Of a stretch of DNA of 64,000 bases, positions 5,769 through 60,257 are shown one piece after another. Source of the stretch: Cystobasidium ongulense (Eukaryota > Basidiomycota > Cystobasidiomycetes > Cystobasidiales > Cystobasidiaceae); assembly GCA_022835595.1 (NCBI GenBank), contig BQUP01000005.1:744001-808000 (forward strand). The letters run 5' to 3'. Numbering within the stretch: the stretch's first letter is position 1; each line of letters begins with the position of its first letter. Both the position numbers and the translations under genes were made by a program. The notes under the pieces are model-generated. The model was given only the letters and a program-made list of their open reading frames with translations, ran no database searches and was not told the DNA's origin.

Positions 5769-6467
5769 GAGCTTTCATGAAGTGAATGGGAGGCCCTGCC
5801 CTGCGTGACGTTAAAAGTTGCACCTGGCTAATTGTCTGGTGTCAATCCATTTATAATTTTGTAAGTCTTCAAACAGATCCAAGCAAGAGCAAGCGATGCA
5901 GGATCAAGCGAATGAATCGTTGTTGAGCTAATATCTGTGTCGTGATGTTCTCCGTTGTGCCCCTTCTACTTCATGCATGGAATTGTGAAATGGTGAATAG
6001 GATTGTGTAACGGTATTTGTTGATTGTGTGCGACATAGCTGTTCGAGCTCTCAATGAGCTTAGAGGGACACTTCAGCTTGTTGGATGACAGAGAGCAATG
6101 TGCCTATTCTCGCTGAGTGTGCTCTGAAGTGTGGATTGTCTGAAGTAGAATATCGAATACATATCGGCCTGGATGATCGGCTTCACTGAGCAGGCAGAAG
6201 GAAGACGTGATGGTAAAAGGTGCAGCAGACCTCGCAGGAGGGAGCGAGCTGGATGGACGGACAGCTGAGAGTTCCAGGACGATGCTGCTTGCCTTGTCAT
6301 CTGCCCATCTCGCCCTCCCTTCCAAGCTTCCCATCCCGCCGCACTGCTGGCTGCCTGGCTCGCATCTCCCGCCGTTTTCCTTCTCTTCCTTTGCTCTCTT
6401 CCATCGACCACGCTTTTCCAGTCAAGTCGTCGCATCCAGCACACCAAGTCATCACCCATCCACAACG
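5769..6467. promoter_or_regulatory. GH15 3' flank and ATP1 promoter region
   Basis: About 700 bp with no gene I can support. The left half is AT-rich 3' flank. The right half, from about 6300, is rich in C/T runs and leads into the ATP1 start; such pyrimidine tracts are common upstream of strongly expressed fungal genes. No clear TATA box was seen. Confidence 0.5.
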
Positions 6468-39882: not shown

Positions 39883-42852
39883 TCATTGCGACGGTAACAT
39901 GAAGCGACCGAAGAAATCGCCTGCCCATTGTGTCCTGAGTCAGCGCATGGACTACAAGTACTTGATGCAAGATACCTACCGATTTGTTCGTACTCGTCCA
40001 TCCGCACCACTTGAGCTACATATTGGTCCGGTCGAATGACAACGATGCAGCCTACGTTCTCGTCGATTCCATAACCTTGATAAGCTTGACCATGACCGTT
40101 GTGATAGGACATGCAATCGGCGAAAACGGTGTCGAAGGCTGGTAAATCAGCAGTAGGCTCAGCTAAGATGGTTCTCGAGTGACTCAAGAGAGACTTACCT
40201 GTCACACGTAGCTCTCCTCGGACAGGGCGGAGTACTTCCGGCCAACGAAGGCAGTCGGATTGCGCATGTTGGTAAGGTCCCGAAACAACGGTCAAGCACT
40301 CGACGACTGAGTCTGTATCGGACTGCTTCGGGGTATACAGGCGTACTGGGCCTTCTGGTGAGTCGAGGTATCTTGCTGCTACGTCGAAACGCTGACGAGA
40401 GGCTTCTTGACGGATATCGCCAGGGAAAACTAGATAGTCGGATGCACGCGTACTTTAGACAGGAAACTTGATGCTCCGCCTGGGTATCAGACTTACCAAT
40501 GATCTTCCATCGTCCATCGGCTTTCAACCTACGCTGAAGCTGCACAGCGTGGAGATTGCTAACGCATACGGCTTGTCGATTCTCAAAGTGCTATGAGACA
40601 ATACGCTAAGCATTTACCGCAGATAAAGTAAGGACGGATACCCTACAGATCCAACTTTGATACCAGTCGCGCCACCTTCCTCAGCCTGCAGCTTATTTGC
40701 TACAAGAACGCTAGGCGTATAAACGACCCCCGTCCCGGAAACGAATTTGGCCATTCGAAGCCCCGCTTTTCTAAACTCATCGGTAGCACGAGCCAGCTAG
40801 ACAGACACACGTTCGGAAATTCAGCTTGGGCCGCTTGCGTAGATTGCGACTTCGAGATATTTACCTCTTCTGGACCATTAGCAGCGGCTACTTGGGCGTT
40901 GATCTCTGACCAGACTCCGTGCATGCCAATGAGGTCATTAGCAACTGCGCGTCTTTCTACTTGGTCTGCGAGGACGATCAACATAAGGCTAGTTTTCAGG
41001 GGCCTGACTTCATAGGACCGTCACGTACAAGTGCTTAGGATGTCGGGTGAAGCTTGTTGCTTGATGACGCTAGCGAGTTTCCAGCCTAAATTGAAAGTGT
41101 CCATCATGGAGACACTGGAAATACATACGTAAGTCTGGGCAGGGATCAATGTGGCCAGCCACTTACTTCATTCCCTGGCCTGCCCCTGTGTGTGTGACAC
41201 GGTATATTAGTTCAGCACGCAATGATTGCTAGCCTAGGCACATACTTGGACTATGCGTGTGGCAGGCGTCGCTAACCAAACAGAAATCAGCGCGTTCCTA
41301 TTTTGTCGGTGCGATGCAAGCTCACCCAGCAATGAAAAGTCTATTGTGCTTCGAGAAGGTATCGCAAAGACGTTGGCCGACCTCGCTTATGACGCGGACA
41401 GTATCAGTAGGGACTCGAGATCCAGGGTCGGAGATACTTACTAGCAGCTATACCAGTCGATTCTCCTGAAGTCCAGCTTGAATGGATAGAGGGCCTCTTT
41501 AGTTCTCGCCATTAGCTTCTCTACAGTCACTTGTGAGCGGTCGACGCGCTTTCCATCTGAAACAGTCCCCATCTGGGTGTACACTCTGACGAGGCCTTTT
41601 TCTCGAGGAATCATGCGGACGCCTTCCCCATGTGTGAGGTTGATCAAGTTCTTGGTGCGAATAGTCGGGAGCTGTGCGGTGCTAGCAGACTTAGCCAGAC
41701 ACAAAAACAGCTTGCTTTCTTCCTCACATCTGTTTCGATGACCGCATCAAAACACCCCCAGAAAATGTTGGCTGAATCGCCTCGCATTTCGAAGCCGAGT
41801 TGCCTGTCAGATGGCAGCTCGGTCAGCTTTTTTATCGCAAAGTGAGCCAAATGCCGAGCAAGCTCACTTTCTGACCCAAGAGTGCGCTCCGTCACAACCG
41901 ACCAGGTATTTGCAATGAGTTACCTGTCTTTCAAGATGTTCATCCACATCGCTATGGCCGTTGGTCCCGTTGATGAATAAGTTGGAACGATACAGGCCGC
42001 TCTTGATGTCTCCATTGGCTAGTCCTGCTGGAGGTGGTACTGCTTCCAAAGTTACGTGAATGGGATATGCGGATGCATCGGCTTGTTCGATGTCGGCGTC
42101 GATTTCCAGTTTGACAGGTCGTAGCAATCGGTCGACTTCGAGATTGTCTACACACGGGTCCCTGTCAGTCTCACTTCTGTGAATACGAGAAGTGTTCACC
42201 TCTGACTCACCATTCTTCTTCATGGCCTCGAGAAAGATAGCCTCGACCCGATCCTGTCCCAAAAGGACATGTCTCGCCAAGGATGTGCCTGGAAGCGTCT
42301 GAGAAGGTAGAGGTGTATTAGTATGCATTGAAAATCTCCGTTGCTTGAGGCATTGCTTACATCTGGCTGTCGTGCTGTCTCGACTAATTTGCCGGTAAGG
42401 TGATCTTGCGTATAAGTAACCGTTTCTGTAAACGGAAGCGACACACGTCAACAACCATTCTAGTGATAGACTAGGTAGCGAACGCACCGGCACATTCGCA
42501 TGCCTCTTCTTCAAACCGATTGCCAACACCCAGAGCATGGAAGACCTCGCCCGTTCTGCATTGCAATCCTAAGCAATGAAAGCCAAGACTCTCGTTAGGC
42601 GCGTCTATAGCATAGCGTAAAGAAGCCTGACGCACCATCCGCGTGCCCCCTCAGCACAGGATGTGCAGCTTTATCAACAATCTTCACGTGCAGCTTGAGC
42701 TTCGACAGCTGGGTTGCCAGCATGAGACCAGCTGAGTGTATGCAAATCATGTCAGTCGGGTCCATCAGCAGCTTGATCGAGAAGTCCAGCGCACCAGGTC
42801 CTGCTCCAACGATGAGGACATCTACGCGAGTCTCCGTGGTGTTGATAGCCAT
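39883..42852 (-). CDS. FAD-dependent phenol-hydroxylase-like monooxygenase
   Basis: Eighteen short exons splice to 645 residues, near the 664 of Trichosporon phenol hydroxylase. The first five are 42852-42795, 42731-42636, 42568-42488, 42425-42361 and 42298-42211; the last encodes GDFFGRFMLPSQ and ends at 39883. Motifs: the Rossmann GAGPAGLMLA, GHADGLQCRTGEV, YLVGCDGAHSW, GDACHTHSPRAGQGMN (the second FAD/NADPH motif), GWKLASVI and the thioredoxin-like C-domain (ADGRWKII, HGQAYQGYGID). These define the FAD_binding_3/phenol 2-monooxygenase group, which ortho-hydroxylates phenols with NADPH and O2. The true substrate may be another hydroxyaromatic. Its start is 424 bp from the divergent P450 start, so the two may be co-regulated. 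Confidence 0.88.
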
Positions 42853-43275
42853 TTTAGTTACTCGATGTAGGTCAACAGATGTCCAGATCTTCCGTACTGA
42901 TAGTGCTTCGAGAAGCTCAAGTGGCGCTGTCGAGCTGCTTTGACCGGCGGGTAGGTGTCTGCATCGGTTAGATCCGCCCTCACCAGGCGCAAACGCAGGC
43001 CAAGGCTGCAATCAGTACGTCGGAAATGCGTTGTCTGCTCGAAGAGGCTCTTTCCGTCTTGCAGGATTCAGCCGAAATGGCGCTCGGAAACAGCCGAGAA
43101 ACCTCGACTTCAAAGGCGGACCGCTATCCCGGAAGGGCTTGCGATGGAGGCCCACGCAAAGGCATCCGGTACTTGTGGAGTGTGCCCGCATTCTGTGTGC
43201 CTGTGGATGTTCTGAGTGCTGTTCTGCTGCACGACTCTCGCGTTGGTGCAAAGTGAAGAACTCGTTGCAGAAAAG
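42853..43275. promoter_or_regulatory. Divergent promoter, monooxygenase and P450
   Basis: A 423-bp region between divergent start codons of two oxygenases, so one regulator could control both. I saw no obvious CGG inverted or direct repeat of the kind bound by Zn2Cys6 factors, although isolated CGG triplets are present (for example near 42952 and 43020). Confidence 0.5.
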
Positions 43276-45351
43276 ATGGAAGCCTTCGTCAAAAGCTGTC
43301 TAGCGCATCCAGCCTTATTACGCGTACGAGAGCTTGTCTGGAATCTGCGTATCGCTGCTGTAGGGCTGTCGGTCCTGACCTTTGTGGTATGCGACCGCCA
43401 TATTGACTTTGCGCAAACCATGTAGACTGACCCTGCCTCCAGGTCCTCACCCATGTCGTAATCTACTTCCTCGACCCGCACGACCTTCGCAAGTACCCAG
43501 GACCTCGTCTAGCGGCCTTTTCTGATCTATGGGTGAGGGTTACGTCGGTAAATACCTTCAGCTACGACGGTACTAACCTACTTCGGCTGCCTTCATATAG
43601 TTAATGCAGAAGGCGCGCTCCGGCAAGCGCTACCTGCACGTCGATGCTGCGCACAAGAAGTATGGCAAATATGTTAGGATCTCGCCAAGACAGCTCAGCA
43701 TCGCAGATCACGATGCTTATCAAGTTCTGTACGGTCACAGCACTGGTCATATGAAGACCGTCTTTTGTGAGTGTCTGCTCGTGACAAATTCACAATTCTG
43801 TACTATAGGTCGCATCTGAAACGACCTGGGTCTCTCACTCAGACGATGCATTCGTCGGACTAAAAACCACCAAGATTAGGGGTCTTTTCAACTGTACAGA
43901 TCGAGGATACCATACTCGTCGACGCAAGATAGTTTCCGCCACCTTTTCTCAGAAGGTGACTCGATGCACACTATTGTGACTAGTGTCAGGCCACATGCTG
44001 ATTATACCCTGCACCTCCAGAGCATGTTAGACTTCGAGCCATATATCCAGTCGTATCTCCGTATGGCTGTCGAGAGATGGGACAAGCACTGCGAAAACGC
44101 TCTAAAGACAGAGCCGGGCGGTTCGTGGACGGTAGACTGCCTCTTATGGTTCAATTACCTTGCATTCGATACTATCAGTGATCTATGCTTTGGAGAGCCC
44201 TTCGGAATGGTAGACAAGGAGGCCGACATTACTGTCATCAAGAAGGAGGATGGGTCGGTTGTGTACATGCCTGCTATACAGATTCTCAACGAGAGAGGAG
44301 ACTATGCAGCTTCGCTGGGAGTCATCAGACCATGGCTGAGACCATATGCTAAGGTACGCACTGTGCTTCACCGACAGCGTTCACGAGTATGCGGTCTGAC
44401 CGTGACGTTATTCTCATAGACTCTCGACCCATGGTTCCGAAAAGGCAACAACTCGGTGACCCTTCTAGCTGGCATGGCGCGAGCTGCCGTTACCAAACGT
44501 CTCAATGATCCCGCTGCCGACCGTAAGGACATCTTGAACCGTCTTACCGAAGCCCGCGATGAGAACGGCGAACCTCTCTCCTTTGACGAATTGGTTGCCG
44601 AAGCCATTTCTATGCTTATCGGCGTGAGTACAGTTTGCTTAGCCGTCTTTGATGTCATGTTGTAATCTAATGACTGTTTCCGTTTGAAGGGATCTGATAC
44701 CACGTCCAACACGTCTTGTGCCATTGCATACCATCTCGCTAAGAATGTCGACAAGCAGAAAATACTTCAAGCCGAACTTGATGAGGCTTTCCAAGATCGT
44801 GAAATGAGCACCACTTTGGAGTTTACTGACGTCAAGTCCCTACCATACTTGCAAGCATCCATCAACGAAGGTCTCAGAATGCATAATACTCTCGGACTAG
44901 GTCTGCCAAGGCTGATGATGCAAGATAGCGAATTCAAGGGTGAAGTATTCAAGCGAGGTAGCGAGTGTTCAGTACCAACATACACTTTGAATGTAAGTCT
45001 ACTAGGTCGACTTGCACTGGAGGCATAGCTGACTGCTTGCCTCGATGTCATGTCGCTTTCCAACAGCATCTTGAAAATGTATGGGGAGATGCCGAAACAT
45101 ATAGGCCAGAGCGATGGCTTGGCGAAGAAGGACGTATCAACGAGAAGGACTTTTATCCTTTCTCTTTAGGCCCGAGGGCGTGCATTGGTCGCAATCTAGC
45201 TTTGATGCAGCTATATACTTTCATCGGGACGTTCTTCTATAGATATGAGCTTGTCCTCGCAGATCCAAAACAGACAGTCCTCAAAAGCACGGAAGGTTTC
45301 TTGCATAAGCCAGACGAATGCTGGGTGAAAGTGAAGAGACGTCCATCGTAG
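43276..45351 (+). CDS. Cytochrome P450, CYP53-like benzoate 4-hydroxylase
   Basis: Eight exons (43276-43386, 43443-43532, 43601-43766, 43843-43955, 44021-44353, 44420-44623, 44690-44992, 45067-45351) give 534 residues. An N-terminal hydrophobic segment (IAAVGLSVLTFVVLTHVVIYF) anchors it in the ER. P450 motifs: YPGPRLAAFSDLW, the I-helix GGSDTTSN, the K-helix E-x-x-R in INEGLRMHNT, PERWL and the haem loop FSLGPRACIGRN with the axial Cys. Class-typical stretches (YDAFVGLKTTKIRGLFN, RRRKIVSATFSQKSMLDFEP, WFNYLAFDTISDLCFG, YMPAIQILNERGDY) match fungal benzoate para-hydroxylases of CYP53. The expected reaction is benzoate to 4-hydroxybenzoate with NADPH-P450 reductase. Its neighbours are consistent with aromatic-acid catabolism. 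Confidence 0.88.
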
Positions 45352-45930
45352 CTGGTGCCAGCAACTTGGAAGATTTCACGATAATACGAAAGTAGTACTT
45401 CGTTTAGTAATGCCTTTAGCGCAGATTGAGAGTCGGCAGTTCCCCAATCCATCTGTATCCAGTCAGTAGTAGCAACCATTGAAAAGTTGGGATATGAGGG
45501 TGAATGTTTGCACCGGAAACGGAATACGCTGCTTGTTCCTACATACGTCTTCGCAAGGAGCAGATGTCCTCATTGACATCACGTGATGGGGCACCTCAGC
45601 AAGCATCTGTAGAGCTTACTTTTATTATTGCCTGGACGTTCATTGCCCTTGCAGGCTGGGTCTATTTTCATCACGAGCATGGGCTATTTCCAGTCACTAG
45701 CACAGCTGCAGAACCGTTTGACCCTCACAAGCCGTTGCGGCGGGTGTTGAGCCGAGTCTTGAGCTGGGGTCGGCGCCGTCCGAACGTCTACGGGCATGCC
45801 CGGCGGATGATCCACCGGCACGAAAGAACACTGCGTGCCCGCTTTTGACCAGCGTTGGGCTTCTTCTCATACCTAGAGTATACTTTTTGTGATTGCGCCA
45901 GTCTCATAGAGCATACTTCGTTTGTCAATC
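45352..45930. other. Spacer between P450 and decarboxylase; possible small membrane ORF
   Basis: About 580 bp. A plus-strand ORF at 45504-45848 (114 codons) encodes one membrane-length stretch (VELTFIIAWTFIALAGWVYF) followed by an Arg-rich tail. It could be a small unannotated protein or chance. The region must also contain the decarboxylase promoter. Confidence 0.35.
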
Positions 45931-47714
45931 ATGTTAGGAAAGGTAAGAGCGCCGAACTTCACGAGGCAAACCGTCGGGCTCGGGAAGCTGAGCGTTTGGC
46001 CTTGGTTTTTGTGCTTGCAGATCATTTTAGAAGAGTGAGTGGATTGAGGGTAGCATAAAGTGAAGGGCATCACAAACTGACTATTCCTGCCTTTCTAGAG
46101 CATGGTACGGAATCTTCTCGCTTGAAGAGCAGCTCTTGAACACTGCCTAATAGCATCTGATTTGACAGGAACCTGCCACGTCTGAGCTGGGATGCCGTCA
46201 ACTTTGCGAGTCCAGAGGCAGCCAAGATCATGGAAAAGGCCATGCCTGATATGTAGGTATCCTAGCCGAGTGTCGCGGTCTTGCTGCCGTTCCCAGCTGA
46301 TGATGGTGGCGACTATCTTGCAGTGTCGGACGAATCAAGGAAATGGACGAGACTGGCATCGAGCTGCAGGTTCTCTCTTTCACCTCGCCTGGACCTCAAC
46401 TCAGCGACAAGGCTGCGGAAGGTGAAGCTCTAGCTCGTGAAGCGAATGAGTGAGTCTTGCATCTGACAGCCTGTACGTGCCGGCAAGAGCTGCATACTGA
46501 TGGTAATTCGCACCACCAGCTGGGTTGCGAAACAATGTGAACAGCATCCAGGCAGATTCGCCAACTTTGCTGCTATCTGCATGATTAATCCTGAAGCAGC
46601 CGCCAAAGAAGCACGACGATGCGTGACTGAGCGTGAGCCTCACATCCCCCTCTATTCTGTCGAGACATCGCATTCTGACTTGTGATCTCCGAAACAGACC
46701 ATTTCGTTGGAATCGTAAGTTAGGTCACTTCAAAGTGCCTGGGCTGATCCTTAAGCTGACTGAAAACTATTCCATTCACAGATTCTCAACGACTACCAGA
46801 ACGTATGCAACGAGGAGGCACCAGAATGGGCAGAAGAAGGTCCAGACAGCAATGGCAAAATGCTCTACTACGATCATCCAAGCTACGATGTCCTCTGGGA
46901 GACACTCCAAGAGCTAGACGTCCCGGTATACTTGCACCCACGTCTTCACCATGGAGAGTTCTACAAGAAGCGCCCATGGGTGAGTAGTTTGATGTTGTTC
47001 CTTTTCCGGCCGTATCCGTCGGTACTGATTCTGTCTGCGTCCTTCCTTGATTGCGCACAGTTGGCTGCCTCAGCTCATGGCTTCAAGACTCAGCTTGCTT
47101 CCCACATTGTCGCAATGTGCACAAGTGGTATTTTCGACAGATTCCCCAAGGTGAGGAGTCCACGACTGCAGCCTATTGCTTGCATCAAACCTGACTTGTT
47201 GAGTGGCCTGTACAGCTACAAATGATGTTCGGTCATATGGGTGAAGGTATCACTGGCGATCTATGGCGTCTAGACCACAAGCTTGACCGAAAGCGTTTCC
47301 CTACAATGCCGATGGCCAAGAACAAGCTCATCAGAGATTACTTTGCCAACAACATCCACATCACTACTTCCGGTCATTACTCCAGTCGGATGCTACAGGC
47401 ATGTATTTCTGAAATTGGAGCTGACCGCATTCAATTCGCCATTGACTATCCTTGTGAGTGTGTTGACCGAACAAGGAGGGCGACTAGCATTATGACTGAA
47501 ACTTTTGATAGACGAGCCCAAGCTATCAAATGGTGCTACTTGGATGGACACGTGCCCAATCTCCGAGTCTGACAGACTGAAGATTGCTCGCACGAACGCG
47601 ATCAAGCTGCTCAAGCTGGACCGGGCGCCCTTCAACTTGAAATTGGATGCTTCTATGGAAGAGCTCAGAGTGGGAGGACTGGAGAGCCACGTCTTCGGAA
47701 TTAACCAGTATTAG
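45931..47714 (+). CDS. Amidohydrolase-type aromatic acid decarboxylase (ACMSD family)
   Basis: Eleven exons (45931-45942, 46021-46034, 46099-46104, 46169-46252, 46324-46449, 46520-46632, 46698-46714, 46782-46979, 47061-47150, 47216-47453, 47512-47714) give 366 residues. Joining the 6-nt exon 3 rebuilds the family start GKIILEEAWNLPR. Further landmarks: VLSFTSPGPQ, YLHPRL, LASHIVAM with FDRFPK, FGHMGEGITGDLWR, TTSGHYSS, IGADRIQFAIDYPYE and ARTNAIKLLKLD. These follow the metal-dependent amidohydrolase decarboxylases for gamma-resorcylate, 2,3-dihydroxybenzoate and salicylate, including Trichosporon salicylate decarboxylase. Expected role: non-oxidative removal of the carboxyl group from an ortho-hydroxybenzoate, giving a phenol or catechol that the neighbouring monooxygenase could use. 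The exact substrate is not decided by sequence. Confidence 0.87.
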
Positions 47715-47945
47715 CTTGTGTCTAAGGGAGAGTCTAAGTGTGCAGTAAAGATGTAAACAAAGAGCAACCTGGCATATGTTGTGGGCCATTGCCGCATCGC
47801 CAGAGCAGATGCAAGTCGCAGCAGTATATCATCATGTTCCAAGTCTTGCCACTTATTTACCGCGACCTTTTCCACGAGACTTGCACTTATACAACCTCGA
47901 GTTTAACCAATCGGATTTGCTGCCGAGAAAGTATAATGCCGGCCT
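47715..47945. promoter_or_regulatory. Promoter of the Zn2Cys6 regulator
   Basis: Short head-to-tail spacer between the decarboxylase stop and the earliest in-frame start of the regulator. It holds the decarboxylase 3' flank and the regulator promoter. Confidence 0.4.
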
Positions 47946-48029
47946 TTGCGAGATGGGACTGCCATGGCGGGCTCCACAGCCAGCCAGCCTCGATGTCCAG
48001 CACGGTTTATGCCTCCGACCGTGTCTGCC

Positions 48030-51000
48030 ATGTCCAAACGAAGTGCCTCTGACATGGAAACGACCGACAGCTTTCGGCCTGCCGCTGAAGGCTCCGTCGC
48101 GGTTCCGCCGGCAAAGCGACACCGGGTAGCTCTCGCATGCGGTAAGCTCCGCCTCTAAGCAACGATATCATGTTGATTGATTAGCAAGGTCAGTCTATGA
48201 TAGCATGCCGTATTGACGCATTTCTGCTGCCCCAGTCATCTGCCGCCAACGCAAAATCAAGTGTGATGGGAGAAAGCCCTGCAAGACATGTACCGATGCA
48301 AAAAGACCTGCACGCTGCGAGTACCCGTCTGCTACACCGCTGAGAGATGAGGACTATGTCCGTAATCTCGAGGATAAACTTCGCCAGCTGTCTGATCAAC
48401 TACATGGAGAGACAAGTCGTCCGACCCTCGAGCACACTTTATCAAGCTCGAGTGTTATGCCAACGTCGTACAAGGTGGATGCAGCGCAGTCGACCCCTAT
48501 TGTAGACTATGATAGCAATCATATGCGAGACAGCGCGATCTCTTCCGGGAGTCCAGCTGCCGCCCACTATGAACATACGATTACCGAGTCTCGACTGGCA
48601 GATTATACTGAAGAGCCCGCCAACCACCCTTCACCCGGGTTGAGCCCTGCATCTGCCTCTGAAGGGCAATACCTAACTACTTTGGCGTCGCCTTCCATTC
48701 CAAGTCGGCATCTGGGTGGGTTGTTATCTGTCAAGTATGCCTTACGAAGGAGTCAAGCTAAGGAGTGCTAATGATACAGAGACCGGCGACTCGTCTGCTA
48801 GAACATTATTACATAGCGTCGAAGCGGCAATTCAGCAGCTACCGCACAGGAAAGGGCTTCCTCCTCAGGCTCGCAATCAAACCGCATTTTCATATTCACC
48901 TCATCGTTCCCGACCTGCCGATTTGCCCTTTGTATGGAGTCAAAGCAAGGCAGAGCTCTACACTCTCCCACAGAGACACATCTCCGACGCTCTCGTCAAT
49001 GTGTACCGAGCACTAAATTATCCGAGTGAGCACGACACATTCGCCTACTCAAGTAGAACTAGCTGTTTATGAACAAGATTTGCCAGTCTTCAAAGTTCTA
49101 CACTGGCCTACCTTTATGCTGAGCTACGAGGCAACATTTACAGCGGGAAAGCAAGCGGATCCAATCTGGCTAGGGACACTCAATCAGGTGAGGATCAAGC
49201 TTATCACTCTAGCAAGGCAATATCCTTGCCCTTAAGTGAACAGCAGTGAGTATGATCAGCTGACAAGGCGGACATTTCTACAGATCTACGCCATTGCATG
49301 TCAGATCGGGGGAAGGGACATAGTCGGGGATGATGAATTTGGAGCTGGCCATACATTCCACCAGAGAGCATTAGCACTCGGCTACCCCGTGGCACTCTGC
49401 ACTGAAAGCTTGCAAGGCCTACAGTACCTTCTGCTGATGGTAATTTTACATTGTTAATTACGACACGCGGCTTCATCTGACTCGATTCCAACGTATCACA
49501 GGGACAGTATCTGCTGTCGACATCGCAGCCGACGCTCTGCCGGAATGTAGTTGGCCATGCAGTCCGCTCAGCACAAGCACAGGGTCTACAGGTCAAATGG
49601 TACGCAGCCAAATCGACACCATTGCTGGTAGAACTTCAACGGCGAGCATGGGCAGGTGTGATCATTCTTGATGCGACCGCTTCTGCTGTCTTGGGATTGC
49701 CTCCTCTACTCTCGCCAGACGGCCTGCCGCATGCCCTCCCTTCAGGAGAAGAGGATGACAGCATTGTAACGAATGGTGCTAGCTCACCGACCATCTCGGA
49801 CACGTCTTCAAGCCTATTTATGCGGGAAACCACGAAACTTTTAGCAATCCAGATTCGAGTTTTATGCTCCCTCTACAGCGCACCCTCTATCACAACGCCA
49901 CAATGGCCAGACGTCAACAGTATCTTGCTCAGCGCACGCGAACTTGATCGATGGCAAGCTTCTTTGCCGCATGTACTAGGCACCAACGACTCCGGCTCAA
50001 GCTTACGAGCTCGTAGTAACGAGCTAGAGCTCCAATCTCACGTTCTACACGCTCGCTACCTAAATCTCAAGCTCCTCATACATCGTCCTATGCTGTTTCA
50101 TATCTGCCAAAGAGCGTCGTCGAACGATTTGCTTGGAGATGCGCCTTCGCACTTGGACGCAGATATCGCAAGAGGTAGCATGGCACATTGCTGTTCGGCA
50201 GCGCTGCTTCTCATCGAGCACGTAACGGATAGCTGGGAACATGGCCGTCGGGTAGGCGGTGCTTGGTGTAGGTTATGCGCAAGCGTGCTACTTTTATCTC
50301 GCAAAAGCTAATAAGTGGTGATTCAGGGTTTCATCTTTACTACTTCCATTCCGCCTGTCTAGTACTTATCGCAGGCCTGATAATTGAGGTCATCGCATCG
50401 GCAAAGAGTATATCCTGTATCCCGGATCTCGTCAGAGCCATCAAAGCCCTAAAGTCAGCCGAAGTCTATCTGAGCAACGACCCAAGTGAACCAAAGTCAA
50501 TACTGCCGCGCCTTCCAAGCGGTCCTGCGCGAAGTACAGCCAGAAACTGTAATCGGATCATAACGGGCCTGACGGCACACGTCTTGGCCGCAGCACCGCA
50601 TATGTTCAGCCCTGCTCCATCTCAAAGCAATGCACAAAGGGAAGCCGCACATAGCGAAAGCAGCAACGAAGTGGCCCGTCAACTGAACGAATCCCACACA
50701 CGGGCTAAAGAAACTTCCATGTCTGATCCGGCTGATCTCTATCAAACTTTCCTCAATCTGTTCCCCGATGTTCCGACACTCCCGAATTACGAGTCTTGGC
50801 GAAATACATCAGATATGGGAAGTACTTCTTGGGTTGACCCATCCTTGCTACAAAGTTTGGGTAGTGCAGGAGGCGACACCACGTATATGCCTGATTCTCA
50901 ATGGGAATCCACGCAGCCTTCGGCCTGGTCCATAGGTGATCTTCTTCGTGCAGGTTCTGCCCCACAGTAAGTACAAGTTATTTCCCGTTAGGAAATGCTC

Positions 51001-51135
51001 TGAATGTCCACCAATAACATCTTTCCTTCTCTTTGCAGAGCACTCTCCAGCTTCGACACCTTGTATCCTGCGTCGGCCCATCATAACAACGGTCAGAATG
51101 ACCTCGGCTTCTTCTCCCATTATGCAAACTCATAG
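48030..51135 (+). CDS. Zn2Cys6 transcription factor
   Basis: Eight exons (48030-48141, 48236-48715, 48780-49025, 49054-49187, 49284-49439, 49502-50267, 50327-50966, 51039-51135) give 876 residues. Upstream in-frame Met codons at 47946, 47964 and 48009 could lengthen the N-terminus. Intron 1 splits the zinc cluster, which reads ACVICRQRKIKC, then DGRKPCKTC and a final Cys in RPARCEYP, the binuclear cluster of fungal regulators. A coiled linker (YVRNLEDKLRQL) should mediate dimerisation. The middle homology region includes VFKVLHWPTF, GQYLLSTSQPTLC, and LQRRAWAGVIILDA. It sits among the aromatic-catabolism genes and is the natural candidate for their pathway-specific activator, which is inference from position. 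Confidence 0.88.
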
Positions 51136-51393
51136 ATAGTCGCAAATTTTGGGTCTTTCATTGTTGTGACTATTCACAACTTACGTACTGCAGCCCTAAG
51201 AAGTGATAATATGACAGACCTACTGCTTATACAACGTTTGGCCAAAACCTAATATCGTTGGCCCGCCTGGCACAGGTTATGAAATTCGCGGAACAAGATT
51301 TCTGGACAACAAAGTCCTCCATTATGCATACTCATGAAGGTTTTGCTATTTAGGATTGTTCGTACTGATATAGGTGTTGCCTTCCTGATCGAT
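51136..51393. other. Convergent spacer, no gene seen
   Basis: 258 bp between convergent stops of the regulator and the transporter. AT-rich, consistent with 3' UTRs. Confidence 0.4.
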
Positions 51394-53830
51394 TTAGCCA
51401 GAGTATCTGAAATGCTTATTCTGACGGTCGGTCAGATCGCGGAGACCGTTGAAAACATCGCTGTTATCGTGAACTCTGCTGTACTCTGGATCGGTAAGAG
51501 CCAGCTTGTCTCGACGCTTGTTCTCCCATCCCATGTCGAACCAAGTGTACCACGCTAAGATAATATATGCGACGAGCATAGCAAGAGTAAAGATGAGTCC
51601 AGTGCGGTAGCCTGGTGCCTCAGTGGCCAAGAATGTCTGGGGAGTGATGATGTTTGTCTGCAGGCCACAACGATTCGTCAGCGAACCATTGAGACAGTTC
51701 TAATGCATACCGACATTTAAGACTCACGATGCAGTACAGTGCGAAGGTTATGGAGGTAGCGACCTGCTTCTTAGTGAAACCGGTGAAGTTACAACCAATG
51801 ACGGACATAATGACCGTGTAGTTTCCTGCTGTTGTGGATGTTAAGATCACACCGGCTAGACGAGTGCTCTGGGTGCTGGGTCCAGCAGGAACCGAGAGCA
51901 GGATCGCACAACCGGCGATTCCAATTGCACTCCAAGTTGCGGCCAAGGGTTGCTTCTTGTTGCGGAACCAGTGAAAGAAGGTAGGTGGACCTGAGATGCA
52001 GATCTGGGTCAAGGCTTGAACTGCAGAGTTCGGAGCGGTATATACTGTATCAATGCACGTTAGCCGAACATCCGTTAGTGCACAGCGTCATTTAGAGGTT
52101 TCTTACGCTCTACGACAAGACAGTGGGTCAGTCAACTCAGGCTTGCATACTCGGAACAAGTTGGGCTCACGAGCTTTAAGGGCCGTATATCCTAGACCTT
52201 TGATAATGATACCTGGTGGGGTGTGCTCGATTCAGTACCATCATTACATCTGTTATCAGAGTCCAGCGCTGACTGACCAACGAAATTGACCGTGATATTT
52301 CCAAATGTTAGGGCAGTGAACATCTGAATACCGACGAGCCATACTCGATAGTCCCTTAAAGCCTCTTTTGCTTGATCCCATTTGAAATGGCCTGATAGGT
52401 AGTCGTCAATAAAAGGCGTGCCTGAATGGCTTCAAACGTGTGAAAGCTCACTGTTCTTTATTCCGATCTGGGATGCGGCATTTCTGTGTACGGCAATAGA
52501 TTTCTCGCGGGGGCTCAACCAGGAGACGGTCTGAGGAAAACATTTCCAATGATGAGTATGGTACAACTGTATCAGCCTACCACGCCGAGAGACTTACAGT
52601 GGGATTGTCGGGCAAACAGAAGAACTGCGTCGTGAGAGCATGTGAGCGAAGTTCCGACAGAACACTGGTATGATAGGGAACTCACCAAAAGAACACCGGT
52701 GGCAGAGCTAATAAGTCCGAGGAAAAGGAAAATGAGCTGCCAAGAAGCAAGATGGACAGTGCCGACGTGTCCGAGACCATAGTAGATGATGAGCATGGGT
52801 ACTGGCAGCACACCATTGGTCACTGTCCACAGTCCAAAACGGAGTGGCATTTCGGTAGGATTGTACCACATTGTGGTGACTATTGAACAATTCAAGTCAG
52901 TGTTTGATCCGCTGTTTCCTGAGCAAATAGTCAACTAACGGAGTAGAAGTCCAGGGACGAGAGCAGATTCAAGGAAGCCAAGCAAGAATCGCAAAGCCAT
53001 GATTTGACCGAAGTTCTTGACACCTATCATACCGAGAAGCGTGCAGCCCCACTGTGAGCAACGCATCAGTGGTATACCTCGTAGCCATGCAAGGACCGAC
53101 GGCCATACCAAGAAGTAGGCAACGCCAAGGACTCGTCCAGCATGGAATCTTTGAACGATTCGCGCCATAATTGGGGCGCCAATAAGATAACCCTGTGCAG
53201 CGAGGTAAGTACAGGCGGCCCTGCGGAGCGGATGTTGGATGCTCACAAAATAGAAGACCTGGTTGCGCTTTCAATGTCAGGTATTGTGAGAGAGAGCCCG
53301 TGTACTCTCGCACTCACAGTCACACACCAGGAGAATTCCTGACCAACGAGATGAATGTCTTCTCGTAAACCATAAGTAGCAGCAGCTCCTAATGCGCCCT
53401 TGTCGACGAATTGCAGGCCGCACGCCCACGCGCACAAGGGCATAAGTCGCCAGTCGATTTTCCATAACACCTTGTCGTGCTCTGATTAGACGCGGAGCAT
53501 GATAAGCGGGAAGGTAGGCCTAGAGAAGAGTCGGGTGGGCGTATCTGCTCACCTTGCTTCGTATATTGCAGGTCCAAATCGGTGAGTGCCTATTATTAGC
53601 AAGTAAAATTGCAATACGATTAGCCATGGTAGCAGAGCGAGACGACAGTCTGTTACGTCGAGCCAACAACGCATGTCACGCACCTGAGCTCCGACATCAA
53701 GATCCTCGTTCTTGTCGCTGAAACCGCCTTTGTCGTTACCGGGAGCGAATGCAGTTGAGGCATGCTGGGCTTCATCTACTTCCTCCTTGCCGTTAAAGGA
53801 CTCTTCTCTGACAGGATGCGTTGCTGCCAT
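51394..53830 (-). CDS. MFS transporter, anion:cation symporter (Dal5-like)
   Basis: Thirteen exons (53830-53684, 53589-53553, 53481-53318, 53258-53247, 53192-53109, 53051-52940, 52879-52686, 52624-52598, 52530-52452, 52421-52278, 52212-52171, 52044-51728, 51657-51394) give 540 residues. Family features: WRLMPLCAWACGLQFVDKGAL, the loop LREDIHLVGQEFSW, GYLIGAPIMARIVQR, GFLESALVPG, MWYNPTEMPLR, and TAPNSAVQAL in the second half, with about twelve helices and a charged C-terminal tail. Exon 4 is only 12 nt and completes VTVFYFGYL. Dal5/Tna1 relatives carry carboxylates such as allantoate or nicotinate with protons, so an aromatic acid is a reasonable substrate here. Divergent neighbours are absent; it is transcribed towards the regulator. 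Confidence 0.88.
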
Positions 53831-54449
53831 GGTGATTAGCGTTAGATAGGCCACCACTATCTGCTAATAACAAACGCAAAAGAAGGAAAGGGCGATGCGG
53901 AGCCCCCATATTCAGCTTCAAGAAGGATTGGATTGGTCTATACGAAGACTCGAGACGGGCCGAGCCGCTTTTTCTCGGTGAGCGTGATGGAAGGATCCGC
54001 AGAATTCAGGCGTTGCTCGGAAATGGAGCCGCAATGTGAATCAGACCTTGCCATGGGGGCAGACAGGAGCTCTGCTACTGCTCCAGGCCTTCCTCACTGC
54101 AAGAAGCTTGACTCTGTCATTATTGTGGTGACTAGCGCTGCTCCGTGGGTTGTGGACGGAATTGCCGTGAGCAAAACAGGCGAAGGCAAAGGCCAGTCGG
54201 AAGGTCCGCAGCATGAATCGATGATCGAGCGAGAAGTGTAAGGTGGCCGCCATGGGGTGGGCAGTCACTGGTCTCCGGCTATTGTGACACTAGAAGCGAC
54301 AAGCTGGCAAAGCAGACCTCATACAGTCATCGTGGGCGACTCCGAAAGTCCGAATCAAATCCATCGAGTCACGTGACCGGTCTACATTGCTGAACACCGC
54401 AGCGCGAGCAACGGTACGACTGCAAAGTCCACACACAGTTTGTCATTGC
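53831..54449. promoter_or_regulatory. Promoter of the Dal5-like transporter
   Basis: About 620 bp between the transporter start and the dehydrogenase stop. ORF 53933-54241 on the plus strand shows no motif and is not called. Confidence 0.4.
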
Positions 54450-55803
54450 TTACATCACAAGGACAGGTTTCACTACCTTTCCGTCTTTCAGATCCTGTAA
54501 AGCCTGAGCAAAGTCTTCGAATTTGTAGAATGTGAGGAGCTCATCGAATGGAAACAGGCCTGTCGTTGTGGACCAGTTAGTAGGAGCCGCCGACGTATCC
54601 GGAATGACAGTTGGCCTTACCCTTCTTCCATAGGTCCAGCAATTTTGGCACAAACTGATGAGACAGAAAAGGACATTAAACGAGCGTAAGCAGCTTGTAC
54701 ACTGGCAAAGGTGAACGCAGATCTCACCAAGGACGGTATAGCATCTCCCATATGGCAACCTCGATATGTTAGACCTTTCTGGATATGTGGCAGTGTCGAT
54801 AAGACAACATCGTGTGGGGTTCCTCCGATTGTAACCATTGTTCCCTTCACGCCGAGGGATTGCTGTGCGAGCTTTAGAATGGCAGGTGAGCCAACTGCGT
54901 CTAACGCGTATTGCACGCCTAATCCACCTGTGATCTCCTGTAGACGCTTGCCGACGTCTTCCTTTCCCCCGTGGATGGTGTGTGTCGCCCCATACTTGCG
55001 AGCGAGTTCTAGCTTATCATCCAGCATATCAATTGCGATGAGATACTTTGGTGTTGTAAGCTTGGCCGTCATTATAGCTGACAAGCCGACTGTTCCACAG
55101 CCCCATACGGCTATAGAAGACTGGATCTGAGGCTGGCATACGTTGGCTACAAGACCTCCTTAGCTTCGAACATTGCTGGCAGAGTCCCCTAGCTTACCTA
55201 TGGCTCCTGCACCAGTCTGGAATCCGCATCCAATGACCAGCTTCTTGAGTTCTTCCCTGTCCGTTACCTCAACTTTGACGGCACAGCTAGGGTTGACGAT
55301 GGCCAATTTCGAAAAGGAAGATTGACCAAAGAAGAGACCTTTTAGTTTCTTATCGCTTGCATTCTTAATGACCGATGAACCATCTGCTCTATGGCCGGAG
55401 AAGTTGACCGCAGCTATGGATTGACAGAATGGGTTGTTCCCACTTTGACATGACGCGCATGAAGTACAGCTCGCGTAGCTTAGCACAACGGCATCGCCAA
55501 CGGCAAACGATTGCTTGACGCGTGATCCAATTGAGCGTATATAGCCTACTCCCTCGTGTCCCAAGATGACAGGCGGCTTGATTGCAAATTTGCCTTGTGC
55601 TGTCTTTACATCTGTGAAACATACTCCCTGTATATACAATAGACGATCACCTTTAGAAATTGCTGGCAGTTGAGGAAGAACAGCCTCACAGCAGCGACCA
55701 TCTCGACGAGAAGCTCATCATCACGAGGCTCTTCAAGCTCTATCTCTTCTACGCGCCAGTCTGCTCCTGCTTCAAGAGACACGATAGCTTCGGTCTTGAC
55801 CAT
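54450..55803 (-). CDS. Zinc-type aryl-alcohol dehydrogenase-like enzyme
   Basis: Five exons splice to 368 residues; the first three are 55803-55690, 55627-55198 and 55146-54728, followed by a 34-nt exon and the last exon ending at 54450. Medium-chain dehydrogenase motifs: GVCFTD (catalytic zinc Cys), GHEGVGYI, the structural-zinc lobe CTSCASCQSGNNPFC, GCGFQTGAGA and the NAD site VWGCGTVGLSA. The C-terminal part (YRGCHMGDAIPSL, FYKFEDFAQALQDL, GKVVKPVLVM) resembles benzyl/aryl-alcohol dehydrogenases. The expected reaction is oxidation of a benzyl-type alcohol to the aldehyde with NAD. It could feed benzoate to the nearby CYP53-like enzyme after an aldehyde dehydrogenase encoded elsewhere. The substrate is inferred from similarity and context. 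Confidence 0.82.
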
Positions 55804-57695
55804 GGTGATGTGCGATAGCTATAGGTTGGCTGCGAGTCGAGGACAAGGCTTGAGACAGTTGATGCAGAGCCGGTGGACTGCTTCGAGCTTAGGTGTCAAG
55901 TGGAGCTATACATACAACACGCACGAAGGTCTCTGTGAGACGCAGCCTGTAGCCGGCACACCGTCTGCGGACAAGCCGTAAATGCGCAACGCTCCGACTG
56001 GCTCTTCGGTTCTGCCCGAGGACAGGGCATAGGAGGATGAGACTTGATTAACCCTACCATATCGCAGGTCTTCTACTACAGTACCGCACCTCTGGGATGC
56101 TCAGTTGGTCGACAAGAGAGACATGCATTCAGGACAGCGCGAAGCACCTTCTTCTTGATGTGGCTAGAACTGCAAGTTGGCGCGAAGGCTGCTTGCTGCT
56201 GCTCTGCTTCATAGCAATAGTAGGATTGAAAGTCGGGAATGAACGAACAGGCACGAACTAGCCGTGGAGGCTGTAGATGAGCTGCAACTGCTACTCAAAC
56301 CACCACTCAGCCTACAGCTGAGCGCGAGGCGATGGGACCTCTCGAAAAATTGACAGCGCTGGCAAGCGAAGTGGGCGACATCGAGCAAGGGTAACGAGTA
56401 CCGTATACTGGCCCAGATATAGCCAGCATGGTTCTCCGCTGACACTGCTAATTTGGAGACAAGACCTTCAGGATGACCACTATACAGCCAGGTGCGGGGT
56501 CCATATACGAGGGCTCTGTTCTTTCAGTTTATTTGGGGTCTGACAGTCTTGTCAGTTTCAACATACTGTAGACATCTATGGAGAACTCTTGAGCCCATGT
56601 TTTCGACTGCATGGCTACGAACTCTCTATATGAACGCCAGGCGACGAGCAACCTGGATTGGTGCAGACGGAGCATGATCTACGCGAGCGAGGTCATTTCC
56701 ACATCAAAGTTACACTGTCCTATCTGGTCACTCGAGTCCGGTTCAAGAGTATGTCGTTGGGATAGCATGGTGGTAAGGTTGTAGTCCGCACGTATACAAA
56801 ATCGCATGACTGAGAGTCACCGAGCAGCGGGTTTAGCAGACTTTCCTCCACCCCTTTCGGCTTCGGTTTCGTCATCTATACTAGCCTGCAAGACTCGAAT
56901 TCTACTGCAATATGTGATCACTGCGGGGCTTCCAGCATATCGTTCGTCAGTAATATTCTCCACGGTAGCTGGCAAAACGTACAACCTCCTGCCATGTCGA
57001 CATCGCATAATAGACCAGACGGTTGTGCTGTAATACAGGATCTGTGGAAGCTGCGGATATGTCGGGGTTGCGAGGGCACCAAGTTCACACATTTATACCC
57101 ATATAAACTAATAGAAGCTTAAATAATATATCATCGAAGGGGTCGTGAATCTCTTTTGTTCAAAATAATAATCGGAGAACTGTAGCGCGTTGTGATAGAC
57201 GGCATCAAATTTCGGCATTTGGAACCCGCCGGCAGCAAGGTGGCGCAGGTCCTGCCGCAAACTACTTCAAACGTGCTATAACAAACGCGAACACGAAGCA
57301 ACATACAGACTTCTGCCAGGCAAAGGTGCTCGTCGACTACTATTGCAGGGCGAAATTACACCAATGGCTGTGCCGAATCTAGATAGGGCTTTCAGTTTCG
57401 GCAATTCCGAAGACTGCTAAAGACTGGCGATAAAAGGTAAGAATGCAAGCATTCTAAGTTTCACGAGGGCAGGCTGAGCCCGGGGTCCTTCACTGCATAA
57501 TGTTATTCCGCATAGCACATTACGGTAAAATGAAAATGCTGGGCTGGGTCGAATTGCCGAGATAGAAATGTGGGACTCCGCAGGCTGTCTACAGTTTGGA
57601 GTTTCTATGCGGGTTGTTCTCCTGCTCAATACTGGCCGTTCCACTTACTCTTTCACTACTATCCATACTCTTTTACCCCTCGTACTCCTAGCTAG
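55804..57695. other. 1.9-kb region without a recognised gene
   Basis: The longest gene-free stretch, between the divergent dehydrogenase and second transporter. ORFs are short (under 110 codons), overlap on both strands and lack motifs or splice partners. AT-rich sequence near 57090-57180 and a CT-rich stretch before 57690 look like promoter sequence for the transporter. The region may serve as a shared control region for the right end of the cluster. Confidence 0.45.
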
Positions 57696-60257
57696 ATGAG
57701 CCAGCCACATCGCGCGCCCACCGTCTCATCCGTAAATGAGGTCAGACAAGCCCAAGATACCATGGACGGTGGCGAAAAGGCAGACATCGAAATGCTCCCA
57801 CAAGCTTCACACCAGCACCTGCAGGATGGAGTTCATCCCCTAGAGCTCACCAAGGCTTACAGGAACGCTCGCTGGAAAAGTAAGACAGACTCGCCCACGA
57901 ATGGTGCACGAAGACAAGGTCTCTTGTTAACTAGTGTTTTGTCTGTCAATCAGTCGACTTCCTCGTCACAGGCGTGGGCGTGCTACTCTACTTCCTCGCG
58001 TGAGTGACGAGTGAATTTTAGGAGGGATTATATCAAAGATCTAATACCGTATTTCGGCTCTACAGATACTTGGACAAAGCCAATCTAGGCAATGCGAAAG
58101 TAGCAGGCCTGGAAACCGATCTCAACTTGACCAGTACTCAGTACTCTGTCGCTCTCACTATCCTCTACCCGTCCTATATGCTTGTCGAGCTTCCGGCTAG
58201 TCTGCTACTCAAGCGTCTAGGGCCACATCGTGAGTACCTGATTGTTTAGTGCAAAGACAAGGTATCGCTAATCTGCCCATTTGATAGGTTTACTCCCTAT
58301 TTTGACAGTGGGCTTCGGATTGGTGTGCTGTTTGCAAGGCGCGATCAATTCCTATGGAGGATTGTGAGTGCTGCAGTCGCCGCATCGCTTTAAGCTGGTA
58401 TTGACGCAGGACTCGCCGCATGAAGACTGGCAGCCCGATTCTGTCTTGGACTGGCTGAAGGTGGCCTTATTCCCGGTGTCGTCATGTGGGTATCCACTTG
58501 GTACAAACGGTCGGAAATCCAGCTTCGTCTTGCCTGGATCTTTTCATTCATTTCTATGGCTGGCGCATTTGCTGGGTGTAAGTTTCATTGTACCTCGTAT
58601 GCGGTTGACTGAAAGACTGACCAGGTTTGAGCCCTTCAGTGCTGGCTGCGTAAGCTTATCGTTTCTTTGGCTTAGCTCGCAATGAGGGATTCTGATGTGT
58701 GACAACCAACAGAGCAATCTTGACGCTTGACGGCGTACACGGAGTTGCGGGTTGGCGGTACGTTTGGAAATACTGCTTAGGCTGCCCTCGTGACCCTAAA
58801 TTGACGAATTATTACTCTGGTCTTTTCCTCAACAGATGGGTTTTCTATATCGAGGGTGCGATGTCCATCGGAGTCGGCCTACTCGTGCCTTTCATCATGT
58901 CTGCCGATATCGCCTCAGCCTGGTTCCTCACCAAAGAAGAAAAGGAAATGCTCCTCACCGTGCACGACTCAGCCGGCAAGAATCTTGAAATGGAAACCAA
59001 GCTTACCAGAAAGGAGGTTCTCAGCTTCTTCAAGAGTGGTTTCGGCATGCTGTTCCTGCCCGCCTCCTTCTTCAACGGATGTATCGTCTTTGGCATGTCT
59101 TACTTTTTGCCTACGGTAGTCGCTACGTAAGCTTGTCTGCCTTTATCTTCCTCTTGCTCCAAGTTGAGTGTCGTCCAAATAGATTCGGTTACTCCCGAAT
59201 CCAAACTCAGCTTCACACTGTCCCAATCTATGTCGTCGTCTTCTGCTGTAGGTTCCGAACTAGATAACCCGATTCTATTGTAAAACTGATTAGCATTTCT
59301 CCAGGCTCGATGATTACCAGCTACTTCTCCGACAAGTACAAGATCCGAGGGCCTCAATTTATCGCCTTTGGGGTTATCAGTATGATTGGCTACATCATGG
59401 CCTTGGCAGCTAAACCGGAGCAGAAACAGCTGTTCGTTATCAAGTTTGCTTGCTAATGTGGTGAAATACTGATCATGTATAACGTCACAGTCGCTATGCA
59501 GCCCTCTTGTGAGTTAGGCGTCAGCACCAACAAGGTCGAGGAATTGCTTTTCTCGGTAATCAGCTGATAGAAGCTCTCCATTTTGATTTGACAGCTTCCA
59601 AATTTTCGCAGGACCCGGCTTATCACCAGGCCTGAGCGCCTGGATGGTGAATGTAAGTCGCTGCTTCCGTTCCATCAATAAGTCTTCGGGCCTCATTTCC
59701 ATTCTTCTCAGAACATTGCCCCATTCTATAAGCGTTCGACAGGTTAGTCAGAAACTTTAGTTGCTCGAGAACACATGGGTGGTACTTACTGTACGCTATA
59801 TTTACAGCCATTGCAATGGCGTACGTAGTCACACAGTTGGGCGGCATTCTTTCCACATGGATGTGAGTCTGCGCCGGTTCTGTGCGAAAAAGACATGCCG
59901 TACTTAACTCCAAGCACAGTTATCCGACCAAGGATGCTCCATTATACCGTACAGGTGCTGCAATTTCCCTTACTTCCGCAACTTGGATGGCTGGCACCGG
60001 AATTGTTCTTTCTGTCTACGTGAGCTATGCCAACCGTAGAAAGGGCAGAATCATGGCGTCGCTTGAATCAGACCACGTGGTAAGCAAGATGGGTTCACGC
60101 CATAGCCTCTTAGTCTGTTCGAGCTAACATGCTCCATGTTCACAGTTCCCTCCAGGCGCTGTTGCGGACACAGACCGTGAGTTTGTTAACCTCTAACAAC
60201 TATAAGAAGGCTGCAGACTAACCTTCGCTTCCAGCCCGCTACAAATATGTACCCTGA
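57696..60257 (+). CDS. MFS transporter, second anion:cation symporter
   Basis: Seventeen exons (57696-57879, 57954-57999, 58066-58229, 58288-58363, 58426-58577, 58640-58649, 58713-58757, 58836-59126, 59183-59247, 59305-59431, 59491-59508, 59595-59652, 59712-59742, 59808-59862, 59920-60079, 60146-60176, 60235-60257) give 511 residues. Motifs: VLLYFLAYLDKANLGNAKV, YSVALTILYPSYMLVELPA, the loop RFCLGLAEGGLIPGVVMW, GWRWVFYIEGA, PFIMSADIASAWFLT and GPGLSPGLSAWMVNN. About twelve helices are visible. It belongs to the same allantoate-permease/Tna1 superfamily branch as the transporter at 51394-53830 but is clearly a different subgroup, not a recent duplicate. Exon 6 is 10 nt. Likely a proton-coupled uptake carrier for organic or aromatic acids at the plasma membrane. 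Confidence 0.87.

Follow-up and report, generated by a model that had tools for sequence, protein, structure and literature searches.

Fungi use benzoate-type acids that derive from lignin and plant defence, and the question raised here is whether seven adjacent genes of Cystobasidium ongulense serve such a use and what the flavin monooxygenase at their left end acts upon. The genes form a run at positions 39,883-60,221 of a stretch of 64,000 nucleotides, the window, which covers positions 744,001-808,000 of contig BQUP01000005.1 (C5; other contigs are numbered likewise) in a genome of 19.77 Mb on 19 contigs. An earlier interpretation made from the letters alone, below called the sequence-only reading, had proposed an aromatic catabolic gene cluster. 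The seven genes are confirmed, and the aromatic catabolic theme is supported. We read the locus, with a probability of about 0.7, as an upper (peripheral) catabolic cluster for aromatics of the benzyl-alcohol/benzoate type. For the flavin enzyme a role as a hydroxybenzoate hydroxylase is favoured from its predicted substrate pocket.

The genes and the intergenic region between the first two are, in window coordinates:

39883-42852, minus strand: flavin adenine dinucleotide (FAD) dependent aromatic monooxygenase; 18 exons, 636 amino acids; PF01494 and PF07976
42853-43275, no strand: divergent intergenic region between the FAD monooxygenase and P450 genes; 423 bp; CGG-N6-CCG at 42965 and 43085
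43276-45351, plus strand: CYP53-like cytochrome P450; 8 exons, 533 amino acids; four in-frame options exist for the exon-1 donor
45931-47714, plus strand: predicted o-benzoic-acid decarboxylase of the amidohydrolase superfamily; 11 exons, 366 amino acids
47776-50970, plus strand: Zn2Cys6 transcription factor; 8 exons, 865 amino acids in the present model; start uncertain
51394-53830, minus strand: major facilitator superfamily (MFS) transporter 1, MFS1; 12 exons, 532 amino acids
54450-55803, minus strand: zinc-dependent alcohol dehydrogenase (ADH); 5 exons, 368 amino acids
57696-60221, plus strand: MFS transporter 2, MFS2; 17 exons, 499 amino acids

The final models of the FAD, P450 and decarboxylase genes were obtained by spliced alignment to paralogues from the same genome, which corrected the ab initio models, and an MFS-like protein from contig C6 guided those of the transporters. 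All seven have an open frame, a single terminal stop and GT-AG introns, and introns are short and numerous across the cluster genes, as would fit a basidiomycete. Neither a frameshift nor a stop is needed in the FAD gene, the P450 gene or, against the C13 paralogue, the decarboxylase gene; more distant templates give one frameshift in the decarboxylase (C4 paralogue), two in MFS2 and one in MFS1. There is uncertainty about where the MFS genes end, where the regulator gene starts and which first donor the P450 gene uses. A pseudogene or decayed cluster is rejected in view of these open, spliced models. Pfam identifies FAD_binding_3 with Phe_hydrox_dim, p450, Amidohydro_2, Zn_clus with Fungal_trans, MFS_1 twice, and ADH_N with ADH_zinc_N in the spliced models. 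Linkage of pathway-type genes with a regulator and a transporter, the mark of a fungal catabolic gene cluster, is thus present. The order and place of the genes agree with the sequence-only reading, as does its start at 39883, but its end at 60257 does not, since the last MFS2 exon stops at 60,221. The sharp edges that it described also hold: on the left lies ATG9 (Pfam match in five of six stretches), and on the right a protein without a Pfam match in either of the two open reading frames (ORFs) scanned.

Among solved structures the FAD enzyme is closest to yeast phenol hydroxylase 1PN0 (436 bits, E = 2.8e-129), followed by 2DKH (363 bits) and the T. versicolor enzyme 8R2U (343 bits). Like phenol 2-monooxygenase it has the FAD_binding_3 and Phe_hydrox_dim domains, and the structure-based alignment assigns Asp51 and Tyr279 as the catalytic pair. 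It has neither the phenol-type pocket (Gln and Arg266) nor a score above the NCBIfam cut-off: the best model, 'phenol 2-monooxygenase', which is bacterial, gives 494.8 bits for a cut-off of 560. In a locally gap-free alignment, His110 and Lys255 take the positions of His135 and Lys247 of 3-hydroxybenzoate 4-hydroxylase (MHBH; PDB entry 2DKH), which bind the substrate carboxylate in that enzyme (PMC3546652; papers are cited by PMC number for the excerpts of them that were available). The same two positions are occupied by Gln and Arg in 1PN0 and by Glu and Lys in 8R2U. The His/Lys pair also occurs in a paralogue on C1 that is 55-58% identical to the clustered enzyme, so that two PF07976 copies in the genome carry this hydroxybenzoate-type pair. 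The hydrophobic stacking residues of MHBH, Leu258 and Ile260, are not both retained: Arg267 and Ile269 take their place in the clustered enzyme, and Leu and Val in the C1 paralogue.

In the sequence-only reading the FAD enzyme was the phenol hydroxylase of a route from hydroxybenzoate through phenol to catechol. This route is weakened because of the His/Lys pair and because the genome has, at another locus, a much closer orthologue of phenol hydroxylase. The gene at C3:1075001-1085000, although its model is rough and trimmed, reaches 797 bits against 1PN0, compared with 436 bits for the clustered copy and 494 bits for the C1 paralogue, and judging from these scores it is likely the true phenol hydroxylase orthologue of the genome. 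The model of this gene is fused with an unrelated downstream gene. On the pocket and the C3 orthologue together, the clustered enzyme is rejected as the phenol hydroxylase of this genome. Phenol hydroxylase is furthermore reported to be inactive on phenolic acids (PMC12915361). With a close phenol hydroxylase orthologue and two copies that carry the hydroxybenzoate-type pair, this genome shows that the label 'phenol hydroxylase' can mislead when it is given to PF07976 enzymes on overall similarity.

The decarboxylase retains the amidohydrolase fold (PF04909, 111 bits) and three metal ligands expected of an o-benzoic acid decarboxylase. Glu8, His176 and Asp297 correspond to the ligands Glu8, His167 and Asp293 of Aspergillus oryzae 2,3-dihydroxybenzoate (2,3-DHB) decarboxylase (PMC7894528). 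Its corrected start reads MLGKIILEEAWNLP and is assembled from exons of 12, 14 and 6 bases ahead of the next exon. The closest structures are 2,3-DHB decarboxylases (276 bits), followed by gamma-resorcylate decarboxylase (233 bits) and salicylate decarboxylase (202 bits), and the type assigned in the sequence-only reading, a salicylate/dihydroxybenzoate decarboxylase, is thereby supported as a prediction. Two paralogues score higher against the same 2,3-DHB decarboxylase, at 358 bits (C4) and 314 bits (C13).

A P450 is named CYP53 when it is more than about 40% identical to a named CYP53. No named CYP53 is present in the best 60 of the 286 PDB matches of the clustered P450, and its label, which stems from the sequence-only reading, from general knowledge and from the residue match below, is supported as 'CYP53-like'. 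The model (PF00067, 246 bits) contains EGLR and FSLGPRACIG, which fit the P450 motifs EXXR and FXXGXRXCXG (PMC4633277), and it is 57% identical to a second copy on C2. In ascomycete CYP53s, 125 active-site residues have been listed, 35 of them invariant (PMC4164535). Alignment to this sparse template suggests that 29 of the 35 are kept in the clustered copy and 33 in the C2 copy. By the same alignment R120T, T314S, A318G and S382N are changes of the clustered copy only. The less conserved classes are kept to a similar extent in the clustered and C2 copies (18 and 19 of 32, 1 and 1 of 6, and 14 and 17 of 24, respectively). Basidiomycete CYP53s vary widely with few residues conserved, and new functions have been suggested for them (PMC4164535).

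The alcohol dehydrogenase has the motifs GVCFTD, GHEG, CTSCASCQSGNNPFC, VIGCG and GCGTVG, in which we presume the zinc ligands and structural cysteines to lie. Its best PDB matches are 5TNX (a generic name, 273 bits) and benzyl alcohol dehydrogenase 1F8F (253 bits), followed by the alcohol dehydrogenases 8H2B and 8H2A (182 and 177 bits) and class I ADH (155 bits); no NCBIfam model reaches its cut-off. With the ligands and structural cysteines present and a benzyl alcohol dehydrogenase among the top two structures, the enzyme is predicted to be of the benzyl/aryl alcohol type, as had been proposed. MFS1 and MFS2 share only 26% identity. Both have TIGR00893 (2.A.1.14) as their best model, with 139 and 147 bits for a cut-off of 395, and the 4-hydroxyphenylacetate permease HpaX as the second, also below cut-off. 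Two distinct transporters are thus present, as the sequence-only reading stated, but its assignment of both as Dal5/Tna1-type symporters stands only at the level of this family match.

Gene content and order, intact models, conserved catalytic residues, paralogues and the ring-cleavage-type genes elsewhere are observed; the substrates, the sequence of reactions, the way in which the transporters work and the control of the genes are what we infer, as follows. The two MFS proteins, as H+-coupled symporters, would import aromatic acid anions. The alcohol dehydrogenase would oxidize a benzyl-type alcohol to the aldehyde, which an aldehyde dehydrogenase encoded elsewhere would convert to the acid. 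The CYP53-like P450 may then hydroxylate (or O-demethylate) the benzoate ring. The FAD enzyme would take a phenolic acid and introduce a further hydroxyl in the position ortho to the one already present, which gives a catechol-type acid, for example protocatechuate or 2,3-DHB, and the decarboxylase would strip a carboxylate with a hydroxyl ortho to it. The diphenol product would pass to intradiol ring cleavage by enzymes that other loci encode. Control of the seven genes probably lies with the Zn2Cys6 protein, which may act through CGG-N6-CCG sites. In Aspergillus the conversion of benzoate to 4-hydroxybenzoate and protocatechuate by BphA and then PhhA is established (PMC12388069), and PhhA is placed in the PHHY/MHBH clade (PMC12915361).

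The seven genes contain neither an aldehyde dehydrogenase nor a ring-cleavage enzyme, and the cluster is therefore not a whole pathway. Genes of the ring-cleavage type are present elsewhere: there are five intradiol-dioxygenase exon matches at three loci, the third of which is below the Pfam cut-off. About 170 kb away on the same contig, C5:611-617 kb encodes an intradiol dioxygenase, a 7-bladed lactonase and a protein resembling enol-lactonase; the region C5:611001-621000 is likely a 3-oxoadipate pathway cluster. At C4:1.592 Mb (C4:1588001-1598000) an intradiol dioxygenase is found beside an Fe-type ADH, a pair that we take to be a hydroxyquinol dioxygenase and a maleylacetate reductase.

The three enzyme families are small. 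Exon-wise six-frame searches, which give lower bounds, find CYP53-like genes at two loci (>50% identity), PF07976 at five and decarboxylases of this type at three; a fourth decarboxylase-like locus (C5:1.714 Mb, 31% identical) was excluded, and other Amidohydro_2 loci exist. The queries for these paralogues were the initial incomplete models, that of the decarboxylase being without the first 31 residues. For 6000-8000 assumed genes, about 3-5 x 10^-6 neighbouring triples of CYP53, PF07976 and decarboxylase genes are expected by chance. Each of the seven paralogue loci (C1, C3, C6 and C11 for the FAD enzyme, C2 for the P450, C4 and C13 for the decarboxylase; 10 kb each) has no more than one of the three enzyme types. 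The FAD copy shares 10 of 17 introns with its C1 paralogue and the P450 copy four of seven with that on C2; no intron of the decarboxylase gene recurs in its C13 or C4 paralogue. An origin of the cluster as one duplicated block is rejected, the paralogues being on different contigs. In all three families the clustered copy is less canonical than its paralogues, with lower scores or altered pocket residues, which suits duplication followed by retuning as a possible history.

A Zn2Cys6 regulator inside the cluster had already been proposed, and Zn_clus and Fungal_trans confirm it. CGG-N6-CCG is the spacing of some Zn2Cys6 dimers, and besides the two sites listed above this motif occurs at:

45771-45802, no strand: pair upstream of the decarboxylase, with one site at 45771 and a perfectly palindromic one at 45791
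48140-48151, no strand: just before the zinc-cluster exon of the regulator, overlapping the end of predicted exon 2 (48071-48141); it would be intergenic only with a gene start further to the right
53956-53967, no strand: upstream of MFS1
56007-56018, no strand: in the divergent ADH/MFS2 region

The promoter regions of the cluster, 4,034 bp in all, contain seven sites, with all five regions hit; dinucleotide shuffling of these regions, repeated 300 times, gives a mean of 0.64. Four sites are found in 31,355 bp of control DNA (48 intergenic stretches between predicted genes) and seven in the remaining 59,966 bp of the window; the whole window has 14, for a shuffled mean of 7.7. No 8-mer is common to at least four of the five promoter regions. 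As a candidate regulatory site of the cluster, CGG-N6-CCG is suggestive. The divergent ADH/MFS2 gap itself (55804-57695, 1.9 kb) has no predicted gene, its longest open frame being 104 codons.

Several observations weigh against a benzyl-alcohol/benzoate cluster with a hydroxybenzoate hydroxylase. In the FAD enzyme the Leu258 position of MHBH is Arg267, and overall the enzyme is nearer to phenol hydroxylase than to MHBH (436 and 363 bits). Lys likewise occupies the 247 position in TvMNX3, which acts on hydroquinone (PMC12915361), and in HxnV, which acts on dihydroxypyridine (PMC9304392). Since hydroquinone and dihydroxypyridine hydroxylases have this Lys too, only the His is distinctive, and it is the more telling residue. 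HxnV has Ile at the His position of the carboxylate site (PMC9304392); PhhA, which acts on 4-hydroxybenzoate, has the Lys as well (PMC12915361). The hydroxybenzoate assignment is a prediction, and the comparison at the His position covers 2DKH, 1PN0, 8R2U, HxnV and the C1 paralogue. A decarboxylase that needs an ortho hydroxyl does not follow protocatechuate and requires another substrate, and the aldehyde dehydrogenase step is absent from the seven genes. Single pairings occur elsewhere and count against the uniqueness of the cluster, with a PF07976 gene beside an MFS-like gene at C6:104001-114000 and a PF07976 gene with an ADH-like model downstream (by eye) at C1:1039001-1049000. At C13:52001-62000 an FAD-binding protein (FAD_binding_3, 36 bits), which we take to resemble salicylate hydroxylase, lies beside the 2,3-DHB-type decarboxylase; a further neighbour there is a partial model without a Pfam match and is not claimed as an MFS protein. 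In the promoter regions CGG/CCG is denser than elsewhere (32 compared with 20 per kb), and other spacings and orientations are also raised. In the strictest null (other spacings in the same DNA, mean 1.48 per spacing) the Poisson probability is 8e-4 before correction for 183 combinations of spacing and pattern, which is not significant. One of the five regions, that of the regulator (47715-48235), overlaps predicted first exons, so that its status as a promoter is a guess.

The scheme of the sequence-only reading, in which the decarboxylase makes phenol from salicylate, the FAD enzyme acts as a phenol 2-monooxygenase that converts phenol to catechol, and the P450 and the ADH form a second branch from benzyl alcohol to 4-hydroxybenzoate, is unlikely. 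It agrees with yeast phenol hydroxylase as best structural match, with 'phenol 2-monooxygenase' as best NCBIfam model and with salicylate decarboxylases among the matches of the decarboxylase. The cut-off of that (bacterial) model is however missed, the pocket has His/Lys and not Gln/Arg, a 797-bit orthologue is present on C3, and the decarboxylase scores higher against 2,3-DHB decarboxylase (276 bits) than against salicylate decarboxylase (202 bits).

A route from salicylate through 2,3-DHB to catechol has been proposed in A. nidulans and Fusarium graminearum, with no evidence for it in A. niger (PMC12388069). Here it would place the FAD enzyme and the decarboxylase in series and leave the P450 without an evident role. 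In a fuller version the FAD enzyme would be a salicylate 3-hydroxylase that hydroxylates salicylate ortho to its phenolic OH, holds the carboxylate with His110, Lys255 and the unusual Arg267 and hands 2,3-DHB to the decarboxylase, which would yield catechol; the benzyl ADH would feed in salicyl alcohol, and the CYP53 would be retuned to a substituted benzoate. We regard this version as improbable. If true, it would provide a gene for the proposed step from salicylate to 2,3-DHB.

Tailoring or detoxification of a plant or polyketide-derived aromatic, for example an acid of the 6-methylsalicylate type, in a partly biosynthetic cluster that does not serve growth, is quite improbable. In fungal pathways derived from 6-methylsalicylic acid a P450, an ortho-hydroxybenzoate decarboxylase, an ADH and a Zn2Cys6 regulator do co-occur, and the altered pocket residues of the clustered P450 would fit. 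However, Pfam finds no polyketide synthase or nonribosomal peptide synthetase (NRPS) among the seven genes or in 18 other ORFs of the window, which include 11 of the 16 ORFs of at least 200 amino acids left of the cluster, and genome-wide there is one ketoacyl-synthase locus (C2:1.839 Mb; a lower bound, with no genome-wide search made for NRPS). On these two grounds, the absence of a polyketide synthase from the scanned genes and the single ketoacyl-synthase locus, a polyketide tailoring cluster is rejected. That one locus was found, itself a lower bound, suggests that the genome has few or no polyketide synthases.

Chance neighbours without a common function are very improbable: the abundance of Zn-ADH and MFS genes (23 and 75 exon matches), the different neighbourhood of the closest MFS2 paralogue with SDR-like and flavin-monooxygenase-like genes (by eye), the single pairings on C6 and C1 and the weakness of the promoter motif in the strict test would fit, but the expected number of chance triples is 3-5e-6 (for the assumed gene counts) and the seven paralogue loci, at 10 kb each, do not pair the enzyme types.

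The upper catabolic cluster that we prefer is of a known kind, and the locus is a good further member of the fungal aromatic catabolic clusters. The Aspergillus benzoate route (BphA/CYP53A1, PhhA, PrcA) likewise has a CYP53-like P450 and an FAD hydroxylase of the PF07976 clade, with protocatechuate as a likely product. Here, in contrast, the two hydroxylase genes are divergent across 423 bp and lie with a decarboxylase, a benzyl ADH, a regulator and two transporters, without a ring-cleavage gene alongside; no such cluster is described in the excerpts of PMC12388069. The 2,3-DHB decarboxylase (DhbA; structure 7A19 of A. oryzae), for which the route from salicylate through 2,3-DHB to catechol is proposed, belongs to the closest solved relatives of the clustered decarboxylase and shares its three metal ligands, but the clustered enzyme scores lower (276 bits) than its own paralogues (358 and 314 bits) and its hydroxylase neighbour is a PF07976 enzyme.

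The toluene clusters of Cladophialophora immunda contain benzyl alcohol and benzaldehyde dehydrogenase genes, and a CYP53-type benzoate hydroxylase and PF07976 proteins as p-hydroxybenzoate hydroxylase were considered there (PMC5595782). They comprise 13 genes in five clusters, and none described in the available part of that paper joins a CYP53, a PF07976 hydroxylase and an ortho-hydroxybenzoate decarboxylase. In the gentisate cluster of Candida parapsilosis a hydroxybenzoate monooxygenase, the MFS symporter HBT1 and pathway genes are adjacent, as here (PMC5566891). The monooxygenase there is MNX2, the transporter is of the AAHS type and GDX1 adjoins, but the excerpts describe neither a P450 nor a decarboxylase. 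The hxn nicotinate genes of Aspergillus nidulans also combine a PF07976-type hydroxylase, HxnV, with two transporters (PMC9304392), but HxnV acts on dihydroxypyridine, has Lys but Ile for His at the carboxylate site, and the other genes differ. An induced BphA homologue has been reported elsewhere, with no cluster described in the part of the report available (PMC6763618). Neither this seven-gene set nor a yeast cluster of salicylate decarboxylase and phenol hydroxylase was found among the listed matches from the open-licence PMC literature, and for benzoate-type steps the available excerpts contain partial clusters only. With its own regulator, the intact seven-gene set lends itself to a compact test of the way in which dispersed and more canonical enzymes become duplicated, retuned and clustered.

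The closest paralogue of MFS2 is located on C3 (C3:126001-150000) and is 48-85% identical by exon. Its neighbours, by eye, are not of the aromatic type but models resembling a short-chain dehydrogenase/reductase (SDR), a regulator and a Baeyer-Villiger-type flavin monooxygenase, and this is perhaps another catabolic cluster.

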